A stretch of 13,046 nt of DNA, taken from Peptococcaceae bacterium. GTDB taxonomy: Bacteria > Bacillota > Peptococcia > Peptococcales > Peptococcaceae. This document shows positions 9,764-13,046 of the stretch, piece after piece; within the stretch, counting starts at the first letter, position 1, and every line of letters starts with the position of its first letter. A model generated the notes under the pieces. That model was not told the DNA's origin. It did no database searches and worked only from the letters and a program-made list of their open reading frames with translations. The DNA is taken from assembly GCA_017622155.1 (NCBI GenBank), contig JAGARS010000132.1:1-13046 (forward strand). The letters are read 5' to 3'. Position numbers and translations under genes: made by a program.

Positions 9764-9792
9764 TTGACAAACGCATGACGTTTGAGTATAAT
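9764..9792 (+). promoter_or_regulatory. Perfect consensus promoter of the tRNA operon
   Basis: TTGACA (9764-9769), a 17-base spacer and TATAAT (9787-9792) match the sigma-A consensus at all twelve positions. Transcription would begin near 9799, about 16 bases before tRNA-Tyr. The spacer contains an inverted repeat, CAAACG (9768-9773) / CGTTTG (9779-9784). Confidence 0.92.
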
Positions 9793-9814: not shown

Positions 9815-9896
9815 GGAGGGGTTCCCGAGCGGCCAAAGGGGACGGACTGTAAATCCGTTGGCTCTGCCTTCGAAGGTTCGAATCCTTCTCCCTCCA
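9815..9896 (+). tRNA. tRNA-Tyr (anticodon GTA)
   Basis: The acceptor GGAGGGG (9815-9821) pairs with TCCCTCC (9889-9895), with one G-T pair and discriminator A9896. The anticodon stem ACGGA/TCCGT encloses the loop CTGTAAA, so the anticodon is GTA. A long variable arm, as expected for tRNA-Tyr, precedes the T-arm GAAGG-TTCGAAT-CCTTC. CCA is not encoded. It is the first gene of the tRNA operon. Confidence 0.95.
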
Positions 9897-9906
9897 CTTT
9901 TACTGT

Positions 9907-9982
9907 CGCGGGATGGAGCAGTTGGTAGCTCGTCGGGCTCATAACCCGAAGGCCGGAGGTTCGAGTCCTTCTCCCGCAACCA
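9907..9982 (+). tRNA. Initiator tRNA-fMet (anticodon CAT)
   Basis: The sequence closely follows bacterial initiator tRNA. The first base C9907 faces A9978, the mismatch that marks initiators. The anticodon stem carries the three G-C pairs (TCGGG/CCCGA) around the loop CTCATAA. The acceptor CGCGGGA matches TCCCGCA. CCA is encoded at 9980-9982, unlike the other three tRNAs here. Confidence 0.95.
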
Positions 9983-9986
9983 TTGT

Positions 9987-10059
9987 GCTTGTATAGCTCA
10001 GTCGGTAGAGCGTTACCTTGGTAAGGTAAAGGTCACCAGTTCGATTCTGGTTACAAGCT
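9987..10059 (+). tRNA. tRNA-Thr (anticodon GGT)
   Basis: The acceptor GCTTGTA (9987-9993) pairs perfectly with TACAAGC (10052-10058), with discriminator T10059. The anticodon stem TTACC/GGTAA encloses TTGGTAA, so the anticodon is GGT. The T-arm is ACCAG-TTCGATT-CTGGT. CCA is not encoded. Confidence 0.95.
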
Positions 10060-10081
10060 CTTTTCTAACATTAATAAACCT

Positions 10082-10155
10082 GGCGGCATAGCTCAGCTGG
10101 CTAGAGCATACGGTTCATACCCGTAGTGTCCGGGGTTCAAGTCCCTGTGCCGCCA
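10082..10155 (+). tRNA. Elongator tRNA-Met (anticodon CAT)
   Basis: The acceptor GGCGGCA (10082-10088) pairs with TGCCGCC (10148-10154), with discriminator A10155. The anticodon stem TACGG/CCGTA encloses TTCATAC. The body resembles the B. subtilis elongator tRNA-Met and not tRNA-Ile2, which also has a CAT gene anticodon. CCA is not encoded. It is the last gene of the operon. Confidence 0.92.
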
Positions 10156-10160
10156 CTCTC

Positions 10161-10194
10161 AAAGACCTAAGCAATTAGGTCTTTTTTTCTTTTT
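10161..10194 (+). terminator. Terminator of the tRNA operon
   Basis: A perfect 10-bp stem (AAAGACCTAA 10161-10170 with TTAGGTCTTT 10175-10184) has a GCAA tetraloop and is followed by a T-rich run to 10194. It starts six bases after the last tRNA. Confidence 0.95.
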
Positions 10195-10274: not shown

Positions 10275-10303
10275 TTGACTTTTGCCTGTTTGGTGAGTAT
10301 ACT
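10275..10303 (+). promoter_or_regulatory. Promoter of the TM1266-ABC operon
   Basis: TTGACT (10275-10280), a 17-base spacer and TATACT (10298-10303) lie in the 310-base gap between tRNA-Met and the TM1266 gene. The rest of that gap holds the tRNA terminator, A/T-rich sequence with an isolated TATAAT at 10242-10247 lacking a -35 box, and the structured leader. Transcription would start near 10310, giving a leader of about 155 bases. Confidence 0.8.
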
Positions 10304-10343
10304 GAAATCAAATGATTCTGACATCGAAAATGAGTTTTGAGAT

Positions 10344-10434
10344 GAAAGATACGGAATAAATCAGATAATGACTGTAGCTGTGTGGCTATGGTGTGATTTG
10401 CTGTATCTTTTGTCGGAAAAGATACAGCTTTTTT
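10344..10434 (+). promoter_or_regulatory. Candidate riboswitch/attenuator leader (antiterminator versus terminator)
   Basis: Two exclusive folds are visible. In the ON fold, GAAAGATACGG (10344-10354) pairs with CTGTATCTTTT (10401-10411) over 11 bp with two G-U pairs. Inside it, AAATCA (10358-10363) pairs with TGATTT (10394-10399), and ACTGTAGC (10371-10378) pairs with GCTATGGT (10385-10392) around a TGTGTG loop. This leaves the unpaired stretch GATAATG (10364-10370) as a possible binding core. In the OFF fold the same 10400-10411 segment forms a perfect terminator hairpin. No known riboswitch consensus is recognised. A ligand-sensing role is inferred from this architecture. Confidence 0.6.
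10400..10434 (+). terminator. Leader terminator upstream of the TM1266-family gene
   Basis: A perfect 12-bp stem (GCTGTATCTTTT 10400-10411 with AAAAGATACAGC 10417-10428) has a GTCGG loop and six T residues. It lies about 90 bases downstream of the promoter and 32 bases before the first ATG. It can only serve to abort transcription of the operon it precedes, the hallmark of attenuation. Confidence 0.92.
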
Positions 10435-10465: not shown

Positions 10466-10735
10466 ATGGAAACAAGAGTAGCGGTAATCAGTATTATTGT
10501 AGAAAATCCGGAAGTAACGCCGAAAGTAAATGAAATCCTTCATGAATACAGTGACTATATTGTAGGCCGTATGGGGATTCCGTATCGCCAGAGAGGCATC
10601 AGCATTATCAGCCTTGTGGTGGATGCGCCGCAGGATGTGATTTCTGTGCAGTCTGGCAAACTAGGCCGGCTGAAGGGCGTTACAGCCAAAACAGTGTACT
10701 CCAATTATATTTTCAAAGAAGATGAATGCAGATAA
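10466..10735 (+). CDS. TM1266-family putative iron-only hydrogenase system regulator
   Basis: An 89-aa protein matching the TM1266 family along its length: METRVAVISIIVEN, ILHEYSDYIVGRMGIPYRQR, GISIISLVVDAPQDVIS, SGKLGRLKGVTAKTVYSNY. The family has a ferredoxin-like (ACT/NikR C-terminal type) fold and occurs next to [FeFe]-hydrogenase maturation genes. It has no DNA-binding domain, so its role as a regulator is presumed and not shown. AAAGGAG (10451-10457) is 8 bases before the ATG; an overlapping ATG at 10461 is out of frame. It is the first gene after the attenuator leader and is followed after 34 bases by the ABC permease, so it appears to be part of that operon. Confidence 0.9.
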   Translation: METRVAVISIIVENPEVTPKVNEILHEYSDYIVGRMGIPYRQRGISIISLVVDAPQDVISVQSGKLGRLKGVTAKTVYSNYIFKEDECR

Positions 10736-10769: not shown

Positions 10770-11537
10770 ATGAATCGCAGCAATCTTCATAAACGATTAA
10801 AACCATATTATATTTTTGGTGTACTGCTGTTGCTGTGGTTTGTGGCAGCTAAACTGGAAGTCTGGAATGCCTATCTGCTGCCGCCGCCGTGGAAAGTGGC
10901 TGATGCTTTTGTAACGATGTGGCAGCGTGGCGAAATCACAGCATCTGTGCTGGTGAGCCTGCGCCGTGTACTGATTGGGCTCGGCATCTCTTTTGCACTG
11001 GCGTTTTTGGCAAGTCTCCTGACAGCGTACCGGCCAAATCAGGCAGAGTATTTGCGTCAAATTATCAACTTTATGCGCAATGTACCTCCGCTGGCAGTGA
11101 TTTCACTTTTGATTCTGTGGTTCGGGATTGGCGAAACCCCAAAGATTATCGTTATTGTACTGGCGTCGTTTTTTCATATTTATATGAATATCAGCAAAGG
11201 GTTTCTGGAATGTGACCGCAAGCTGATTGAAGTAGGGCGTTCCATGGGCTTTAGTGAAAAGAAAGTGTTCTGGAAAATCTGTCTGCCGTATGCTCGTGAA
11301 GATATTCTGGTAGGGCTGCGTACCGGGCTTGGCTACAGCTGGCGTGCGCTGATTGGTGCGGAGATGATTGCTGCGTCGAGCGGTCTTGGGTATATGATAG
11401 TTTATGCGCAGCAGATGTCTCGGTCCGACAAAGTGCTCATCGGTATTTTCCTGATTGGTATTATCGGGTGTATCAGTGATATGCTGTTCTCCTTATTGAT
11501 TCGCAAAGTGTGTGTAGGGGGCGTGAAAAATGACTGA
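10770..11537 (+). CDS. ABC importer permease (SsuC/TauC/ThiX-like)
   Basis: A 255-aa inner-membrane permease of the nitrate/sulfonate/taurine/HMP-type importers. About six hydrophobic helices are visible. The conserved block RNVPPLAVISLLILWFGIGE (103-122) and the cytoplasmic EAA loop (about 154-175: EVGRSMGFS..KVFWKICLP) contact the ATPase. GAGAGG (10755-10760) precedes the ATG. It overlaps the ATPase gene by 8 bases, which implies coupled translation and one complex. Family members carry sulfonates, nitrate, taurine, pyrimidine precursors of thiamine and others; the sequence does not decide which. Confidence 0.92.
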   Translation: MNRSNLHKRLKPYYIFGVLLLLWFVAAKLEVWNAYLLPPPWKVADAFVTMWQRGEITASVLVSLRRVLIGLGISFALAFLASLLTAYRPNQAEYLRQIINFMRNVPPLAVISLLILWFGIGETPKIIVIVLASFFHIYMNISKGFLECDRKLIEVGRSMGFSEKKVFWKICLPYAREDILVGLRTGLGYSWRALIGAEMIAASSGLGYMIVYAQQMSRSDKVLIGIFLIGIIGCISDMLFSLLIRKVCVGGVKND

Positions 11538-12270
11538 TAACAACGGTGTGAACAACAATAGCAGCAATGTGATAGATATTCGAGGCCTGACCAAAACTTT
11601 TATGGTGGATGGCAGAGCGCATACAGTATTGCAGGATTTAAACCTGACGGTTCCTGCTCATAAAATTACAGTGCTTTTAGGCCGCAGCGGCTGCGGCAAA
11701 ACGACACTGCTTCGTCTGATTGGCGGGCTGGATACCGAATATTCCGGCACTATCAGCAAGCCGCAGGATGCCAAAACAGCTTTCGTATTTCAGGAAGCGC
11801 GGCTGATGCCATGGCTGACAGTATCACAGAATATCGCATTTGGGCTGCACAAAAAAGATATAAATTTCAATGAGATCAATCGTCTGATTTCGCTGACCGG
11901 GCTGGATGGCTTTGCTGATGCTTATCCGCAGCAGTTATCCGGCGGTATGAGTCAGCGTACAGCGCTGGCGCGTGCATTGGCCTTAAATCCAAAGTTTATT
12001 CTGATGGATGAGCCATTTGCCGCACTGGACCATTTTACCCGTGAAAAAATGCAGCAGGCGCTTCTGGATATTCATAAAAACAGCGGCTGCGGTGTATTGT
12101 TTGTAACACACAGTATCGATGAAGCGCTGGCTATTGGGCACCGCATCGTGATACTGGAAGATAAAAAGGTGAAAAAAGTATACCCAATCGCAGAGGCGTG
12201 GCGTAAAAACGGCAGCGAAGAAGAATGCCAGGCATTGCGGCAGGATATCCTTGATTCTATACAAAATTAA
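11530..12270 (+). CDS. ABC importer ATP-binding protein (SsuB/TauB-like)
   Basis: A 246-aa ATPase with all motifs intact: Walker A GRSGCGKTT (51-59), Q-loop Gln88 in VFQEARLMPW, signature LSGGMSQR (136-143), Walker B FILMDEP (156-162), D-loop ALD (165-167) and switch His194 (VTHSIDEAL). The LMPWL following the Q-loop is typical of the SsuB/TauB group. The first ~12 residues are an Asn-rich extension. The ATG at 11530 lies in the last codons of the permease gene. It powers uptake through that permease with the lipoprotein encoded downstream. Confidence 0.95.
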   Translation: MTDNNGVNNNSSNVIDIRGLTKTFMVDGRAHTVLQDLNLTVPAHKITVLLGRSGCGKTTLLRLIGGLDTEYSGTISKPQDAKTAFVFQEARLMPWLTVSQNIAFGLHKKDINFNEINRLISLTGLDGFADAYPQQLSGGMSQRTALARALALNPKFILMDEPFAALDHFTREKMQQALLDIHKNSGCGVLFVTHSIDEALAIGHRIVILEDKKVKKVYPIAEAWRKNGSEEECQALRQDILDSIQN

Positions 12271-12297: not shown

Positions 12298-13046
12298 ATG
12301 AAAAGAAGAAGATTTGCATGTGCAATTCTGGCTCTGATCCTGATTTGTTCTCTGGCAATTACAGGCTGCGGCCAGGCAAAAGCGGTGGAAGAAATCACCG
12401 TAACCTACGTAACATCCCCACTGAATGTACCATCCATCGTGGAGAAAAACCACAGTATTTTTGCTGAAACCATGAAAGAAGTTGGCGTGAAAACTGTTAA
12501 CTATTCTGAAATCACCTCCGGTGCCGATCAGACACAGGCACTGGCATCCGGCGATATTCAGTTCCTGTACGCAGTAGGTGCTACTTCTGTAATCTTATCC
12601 GCTGCCAATGATGCCGATATCAAAGTAATCTCTATGTACAGCCGTTCTCAGGAAGCATTCTGCCTGTTCTCCAACGACAGCAGTATTACCAGCCCGGAAG
12701 ATTTGCGCGGCAAAACTATCGCAGGCCCACAGGGCACTATTCTGCATGAACTTTTGGTAGCATATCTGGCAAGCGGCAACATGACACTGGCAGATGTAAA
12801 CTTTATGAACACTACTATTCCTGACGGTATGGCAGCTATGCTGGGCGGCAGCGTAGACTGTGCATTGCTGGCAGGGGCTGCAGCATACAACACCCAGGCT
12901 AGCGGCGCGCATCTGGTAACCAACGGTTTAGGCTATGTAGATGCTACTATTTGCTGTGCTACCACACAGGCATTCTATGACGAACACAAAGATATCGTAG
13001 ACAGCTTCTTAAAAGCACAGCAGAATGTACTGGACTTCATGGCTGC
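12298..13046 (+). CDS. NMT1/SsuA-like substrate-binding lipoprotein (3' end off the window)
   Basis: An open frame of 249 codons runs to the window edge without a stop. The N-terminus is a lipoprotein signal: Arg-rich KRRR, a hydrophobic core, then ITGC with lipid-modified Cys24. The mature part resembles the NMT1/THI5-SsuA-TauA class of binding proteins: ITVTYVTSPLNVPSIVEKN, TSGADQTQALASGDIQFL, SPEDLRGKTIAGPQGTILHE, AAMLGGSVDCALLAG. AAGGGAG precedes the ATG by 8 bases. It is the captured-substrate component of the importer encoded just upstream. Codons are more C-ending than in the permease and ATPase genes, fitting the greater abundance usual for binding proteins. The ligand is unknown; sulfonates, pyrimidines (HMP), nitrate-like anions and others are possible. 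Confidence 0.93.
   Translation, partial: MKRRRFACAILALILICSLAITGCGQAKAVEEITVTYVTSPLNVPSIVEKNHSIFAETMKEVGVKTVNYSEITSGADQTQALASGDIQFLYAVGATSVILSAANDADIKVISMYSRSQEAFCLFSNDSSITSPEDLRGKTIAGPQGTILHELLVAYLASGNMTLADVNFMNTTIPDGMAAMLGGSVDCALLAGAAAYNTQASGAHLVTNGLGYVDATICCATTQAFYDEHKDIVDSFLKAQQNVLDFMA

Follow-up and report, generated by a model that had tools for sequence, protein, structure and literature searches.

Comparison with described regulatory RNAs

Riboswitches that turn genes off by controlling a terminator include the TPP, FMN, and preQ1 classes. The element described here was found in the leader of a TM1266-ABC importer operon of a Peptococcaceae bacterium (assembly GCA_017622155.1, contig JAGARS010000132.1; the window is the whole stretch of 13,046 nucleotides that was analysed). 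It resembles these OFF riboswitches in having an aptamer-like hairpin at the 5' end of the mRNA, whose 3' strand is common to an antiterminator, an intrinsic terminator 5' of the genes, and import as well as biosynthesis genes under one element; unlike them, it has no Rfam match at the cut-off and its target is the assembly of the H-cluster. With PyrR-type attenuators (RF00515), as their mechanism is generally understood, it shares a hairpin set against an antiterminator and a putative regulator as first gene, but it differs from them in the absence of an Rfam match, in the sensor-like fold of TM1266, and in that no TM1266 feature tracks the presence of the element. The nifV candidate RNA (PMC11109978) is a weak riboswitch candidate that likewise lies 5' of a gene for the assembly of a complex metallocofactor; it differs from our case in having four representatives, in Geobacter only, located before nifV and with the Shine-Dalgarno sequence within the structure. 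The NMT1-motif, a xanthine riboswitch (PMC7373994), has its namesake in the domain name of the window binding protein, but cmscan in evalue mode gave no match to it in the window leader, and its gene set is different.

At the gathering cut-off, none of the 4227 families of Rfam 15 matched the leaders of the window and 17 relatives. In evalue mode, the window leader matched Atu_Ti4 best, and weakly (E 0.094, with 19.7 bits where the cut-off is 40), and all matches of three leaders were far below the cut-off (best mir-7359, E 0.017, 23.5 bits against 90). The first-pass annotation of this DNA, which could assign the leader to no known class and proposed an Rfam search, was therefore borne out, with no match at the cut-off and none credible in evalue mode. 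A published description of the element was not found in the main text of open-access PMC articles, and the passages of the GC-IGR papers retrieved by search term held nothing describing it.

Promoter, terminator and antiterminator in the window leader

The window operon, on the forward strand like all features given below, starts with a gene for a TM1266-family protein (PF21699, TIGR03959; NikR-C/ACT-like sensor fold; 10466-10735), followed by genes for an ABC importer permease (BPD_transp_1; 10770-11537), the ABC importer ATPase (11530-12270), and an NMT1/SsuA-type substrate-binding lipoprotein (SBP; 12298-13044), the last being cut by the contig end. A sigma-70-type promoter-like sequence, TTGACT-17-TATACT, was recognised by sequence match at 10275-10303, and an intrinsic terminator lies ahead of the genes at 10400-10434, with a 12-bp stem at 10400-10428 (-16.4 kcal/mol, z -6.3) and a T tract after it; both agree with the first-pass annotation. 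The antiterminator that it had predicted also held, in which the 5' arm (10344-10354) pairs with the 3' arm (10401-10411), itself the 5' arm of the terminator, over 11 bp with two G-U pairs; the fold of 10340-10412 had an MFE of -23.7 kcal/mol (z -5.35), and 0/200 shuffles equalled it. By hard-constrained folding of the full window leader, the terminated form reached -34.5 kcal/mol and the antiterminated form -34.0 kcal/mol, so the terminator hairpin, earlier described as the more stable default, is hardly that.

Upstream of the leader, a 12/12 match to the sigma-70 promoter (9764-9792) stands ahead of four tRNA genes (Tyr, Met, Thr, Met) in the region 9815-10184, and the terminator-like site after them (10161-10184) adjoins the TM1266-ABC operon.

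A conserved hairpin element in related leaders

Loci were fetched for 80 TM1266 homologues, and many of them shared an upstream motif, YCUGAC-RYN-GAAA-loop-UUGA-NRYG-AAAGR, which starts before the antiterminator. A covariance model from 39 sequences (R1) matched 46/80 loci and the window at E <= 0.001, 39 of these 47 being the sequences that built it; a few R1-matched elements sit 3' of TM1266 or several hundred bases 5' of it. Applied to 75 sources, R1 yielded 77 elements, and a second model (R2) brought 101 into one alignment; both alignments did without the near duplicates L049, L051, and L072 and without L091-L120, whose genomes were already covered. The window fits the covariance model with its CUGAC...GAAAGR core at 10314-10353, with 47.0 bits and E 2.2e-10 under R2 and with E 7.3e-9 when its own genome was scanned with R1, the window being among the sequences of both models.

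The element is about 35 nt long and consists of P1 (YCU/AGR), a GA/AA internal loop, P2 (4 bp), a purine-rich internal loop, and P3, and its conserved unpaired bases sit in the internal loops. In the window, the 5' strand of P1 is UCU at 10317-10319 (partner 10347-10349), P2 joins CAUC at 10322-10325 with GAUG at 10341-10344, and P3 is an AAA/UUU hairpin with a variable loop at 10328-10338; the MFE fold of the isolated window hairpin is the covariation structure. The first-pass annotation had overlooked this hairpin and placed an aptamer-like domain at 10344-10411, whereas the conserved one, at 10314-10353, lies 5' of the antiterminator arm and overlaps it.

Among 99 distinct sequences, 91.4% of the cells were paired versus 81.4% in shuffles, in an alignment fitted to the model, and double-change cells numbered 111 versus 26.4 (0/500), again in the model-fitted alignment and with shuffles that ignore relatedness. 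As a control, sliding the partner by 1-3 columns left pairing at <= 48.2%. A MAFFT alignment of 38 distinct sequences gave 88.3% versus 79.2% paired and 42 versus 13.4 double changes (0/500). P2 and P3 covary, with the exchanges A-U/G-C, C-G/U-A, C-G/G-C, and A-U/G-C; further pair types were no higher than in shuffles of the 99 sequences (15 versus 15.3). P1 has 3 bp only, of which two pairs are invariant and the third is paired in 56/94 rows.

Expression platform among relatives

A promoter-like site was present 4-45 nt 5' of the element in 68/121 cases, against a shuffle expectation of 12.2. The commonest spacing from the end of the -10 box to CUGA was 11 nt (14 nt in the window), and transcripts should therefore start close to the 5' end of the hairpin. 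A terminator followed 3' of the element in 108/121 (about 5% in shuffled downstream sequence), and 13/121 had none under the criteria applied. When GAAAGR and the next bases were paired with their own terminator, the mean energy was -11.45 kcal/mol, compared with -8.99 kcal/mol (sd 0.24) for permuted terminators (0/5000, n=104, without L190, in which the arm escaped recognition, and without three arm/terminator pairs that were repeats), and the preference for the own terminator persisted in each of the two subclasses, AAAGA (n=26) and AAAGG (n=72). The antiterminator thus coevolves with the terminator. The best duplex spanned all three bases of the P1 3' strand in 78/104 and not all of them in 26/104; where it covers this strand, hairpin and antiterminator compete for the same bases (in the window, the 5' arm overlaps 10347-10349 of P1 and the last P2 base, 10344). 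Terminator and antiterminator are mutually exclusive and tied to an aptamer-like hairpin, as in a terminator-type riboswitch. We are highly confident that this is a real RNA family and an attenuator, and we regard the element as a candidate new riboswitch class.

Inside the window antiterminator lies a further hairpin (10357-10400; helices 10357-10363/10394-10400 and 10371-10379/10384-10392). Both helices and the unpaired GATAATG appeared in the centroid fold of 10340-10412, as the first-pass annotation had drawn them for its inner domain of about 68 nt; as a conserved domain, this part was rejected, because the hairpin is not conserved among relatives, GATAATG occurs in 4/121 elements including the window, and the distance from element to terminator ranges from 9 to 131 nt.

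Genomic distribution and downstream genes

The covariance models found the element in many uncultured Clostridia-type genomes. Downstream genes were recognised by tblastn with 13 reference proteins, and 121/123 elements preceded TM1266, HydE, HydF, HydG, FecC, NifH-like, or SBP genes, which points to a single pathway; five context-less matches (L172/L198, L196, L197, L199; no pathway gene 3') had been left out before this count, as had the weak L073 and L042:6309, and only part of the model matches in the scans of G168 and G175 relatives was fetched. The first recognised gene was TM1266 in 105, HydE in 6, HydF in 3, FecC in 3, HydG in 2 (both about 600 nt off), NifH-like in 1, SBP in 1, and none in 2. 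Low-score matches without pathway context comprised L220 and L221 in addition to those five. The commonest gene order under the element was TM1266-HydE-HydG-HydF, that of [FeFe]-hydrogenase maturation. The first-pass view of an unassigned, riboswitch-like attenuator thus stands, now with a conserved element; what it missed is that the family mostly precedes maturation genes and that the window ABC operon is a variant target.

A single model match at E <= 0.05 was present in 35/38 genomes reached via such leaders. Four scans covered genomes not picked for their own leader, and the element was present in 5/150 relatives of the window genome (window genome counted), 47/247 relatives of G168, 19/245 relatives of G157 (four without pathway context, L196-L199), and 49/246 relatives of G175 (with a pathway gene at all 19 newly fetched loci). 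In the G168 set, TM1266 was found in 46/47 element genomes versus 144/247 overall (Fisher p 1.2e-11). Another count of element genomes gave 37/40; those without TM1266 (G426, G510, G617) carry context-less matches only, so that TM1266 was present in the checked genomes wherever the element has pathway context. TM1266 itself is more widespread: 98/144 TM1266-bearing genomes of the G168 set and 34/81 TM1266 loci first examined had no element. Among the 150 window relatives, TM1266 occurred in 81 and the element in 5, and the element is therefore uncommon there. The models found no element at the window genome's own TM1266-HydE-HydG locus (L176, G000:C103). The leader DNA, compared with 120 genomes, matched itself and three stretches of 24-34 bases.

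Two Blautia loci (L008:4670-5010, L014:4700-5010) have the orthologous TM1266-ABC operon without the element and share a different, well-conserved leader, which has a terminator-like end and no Rfam identity.

Proposed regulatory model and alternative explanations

The best explanation, in which we have moderate confidence, is that the leader is a cis-acting attenuator of a new RNA family that acts as an OFF switch, with a ligand of the hairpin that may come from H-cluster assembly. The hairpin would be transcribed from near its 5' end, and its 3' strand would be the 5' arm of the antiterminator. Without ligand, the antiterminator would form first and RNA polymerase would enter the operon; a ligand-stabilised hairpin would block the antiterminator, so that the terminator would form and the genes would be off. 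Such a ligand would be made by HydE/HydG or imported by the ABC systems. Because the 3' strand of the hairpin doubles as the 5' arm of the antiterminator, ligand-bound transcripts should end at the terminator. Hard-constrained folding of the window put the antiterminator ahead of the aptamer state by 4.6 kcal/mol at transcript end 10411, by 9.8-10.7 kcal/mol at 10415-10420, and by 7.4 kcal/mol at 10424, and from this advantage over 10415-10424 we infer the OFF polarity, which is likely and is the reverse of the earlier proposal that a ligand switches the operon on. That proposal, with the terminated form as default and a ligand stabilising the antiterminator, gains from the 0.5 kcal/mol by which the full-length terminated fold of the window is better, but the conserved bases lie in the upstream hairpin, a competitor of the antiterminator, and not in the inner antiterminator region, and RNA polymerase makes the 3' arm of the antiterminator before it completes the terminator; we consider an ON switch very unlikely. 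Attenuation by a leader peptide or by a T-box and tRNA is far less probable still. The window hairpin does fall within a short open frame (15 codons, 10312-10359, ATG at 10312), but relatives are not enriched for such frames and no conserved leader ORF was found, leader ORFs being fewer than in shuffles (77/121 versus 106/121, one shuffle each) and SD-like motifs being present in 7/121 leaders; a T-box match in Rfam was lacking as well.

The predicted model of TM1266 (pLDDT 93.9) best matched 2nzc (T. maritima TM1266), then NikR metal-binding and ACT domains. At L021:3468-4604 and L242:8225-9292, the TM1266 domain forms the C-terminal part of a FecE-type ABC ATPase, and among the 120 listed relatives of such an ATPase-fused domain, 115 have PF00005 as well as PF21699. 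Such a fold and the frequent fusion to ABC ATPases suggest ligand sensing, and TM1266 likely has a sensor role; its ligand could be the compound to which the RNA responds, or TM1266 could act on the RNA as its partner. In the latter case TM1266, or another protein, would bind the hairpin and block the antiterminator in a PyrR-like autoregulation. The position of TM1266 as first recognised gene, its annotation as 'putative regulator', its presence in all checked element genomes with context, and the conserved RNA, which is small and whose conserved unpaired bases sit in internal loops, all fit a protein effector. Against it stand the many TM1266 genomes without the element, the sensor-like fold, and the comparison of TM1266 proteins with (47) and without (34) the element, which no position separated (largest frequency distance 0.58; a weak test) and whose net charge was the same (0.43 and 0.44). 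Protein-mediated attenuation is the main rival, with a minor share of the probability, and a direct ligand is probably the effector. This ligand may be a small molecule or ion of H-cluster assembly, for the same element 5' of biosynthesis genes or importers follows the usual logic of a product-sensing riboswitch; that it is specifically an H-cluster intermediate or a HydG-related product is a tentative and rather doubtful proposal. Plain iron or another metal ion would be a version of the same explanation, with overlapping probability, and is less likely again. FecBCD-type importers commonly carry iron complexes, TM1266 resembles the nickel-binding domain of NikR, and purine-rich internal loops can bind metal; on the other hand, an iron OFF switch would put hydrogenase maturation on during iron starvation, and the elements with a recognised gene keep to H-cluster genes and their importers.

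Importer operons and the search for HydG

The tie between the window transporter and the H-cluster pathway comes from locus L009, where the same element lies 5' of TM1266-HydE-permease-ATPase-SBP-HydF. The window proteins match this set between HydE and HydF with identities of 78% (permease), 76% (ATPase), and 81% (SBP), and the ligand may accordingly belong to H-cluster assembly. G012, which belongs to the window's family and whose listed completeness is 100%, has two elements, 5' of TM1266 and of FecC in one gene run, which starts with TM1266, FecC, a FecE-TM1266 fusion, HydE, and NifH-like and ends with two nitrogenase-component-1-like proteins, a FecB-type binding protein, and HydF. The run in G372 and G351 is TM1266-FecC-FecE-TM1266-HydE-NifH-NifD-NifK. 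We infer that both kinds of importer serve the H-cluster pathway.

HydG was searched in 32 hand-chosen genomes, mostly MAGs of unstated completeness. It was present in 3/3 genomes with the plain maturation operon and in 3/14 with the NMT1-type importer (G000, which is the window genome, G633, and a partial copy in G643; three of these 14, G818, G819, and G820, lack the element), in 0/10 with FecC and/or a HydE-NifH-like module (among them G713 and G724, where TM1266-FecC-FecE and HydE-NifH, respectively, were the parts observed), and in 0/5 of the remaining genomes. In this search, we took matches of 40-66 bits as HydE-like and those of 150-161 bits with 29-31% identity (G364, G424, G822, and the second in G168) as ThiH-like. 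PF02906 hydrogenase genes were found in 30/32, all but G818 and G820, with weak matches only in G713 and G313. As the genomes were hand-chosen and mostly MAGs, the missing HydG is a lead and no test. Acetogens without an identified hydG are discussed in PMC9431212.

One reading of these genomes, speculative and on the whole unlikely, is that an H-cluster intermediate, organometallic or otherwise, is sensed by the RNA directly, the candidates being the HydG product or a compound derived from it. HydG-less gut bacteria would import this compound through the ABC systems under the same switch, so that cells would exchange or salvage building blocks of the hydrogenase cofactor, or else a FecBCD-importer/NifHDK-like module would substitute for HydG chemistry. 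If the broader explanation of an OFF switch for H-cluster assembly is right, a class of riboswitches would govern how the active site of [FeFe]-hydrogenase is built, which is an important catalyst of H2 production in anaerobes of the gut and rumen, and the little-studied TM1266 and two kinds of ABC importer would be tied to the H-cluster pathway. It would also make a puzzle accessible to testing, namely the source of the CO and cyanide ligands in hydrogenase bacteria without detectable HydG, and the RNA could serve as the assay in a search for the missing compound.

Several further loci were noted. L242:1585-10847 and L234:623-8452 contain HydE (with HydF in L242), a FecC/FecE importer, and NifH/NifD/NifK-like genes, and no HydG. 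The element is absent from L028, L032, L052, L068, and L075, where NifH-like and nitrogenase-component-1-like genes come after TM1266, and in several of them the gene 5' of TM1266 looks HypE-like by eye. SBP-ABC operons of the element family lie a few kb from PF02906 hydrogenase genes in L237, L238, L239, and L240, the hydrogenase of L237 being a group A6 HydA.
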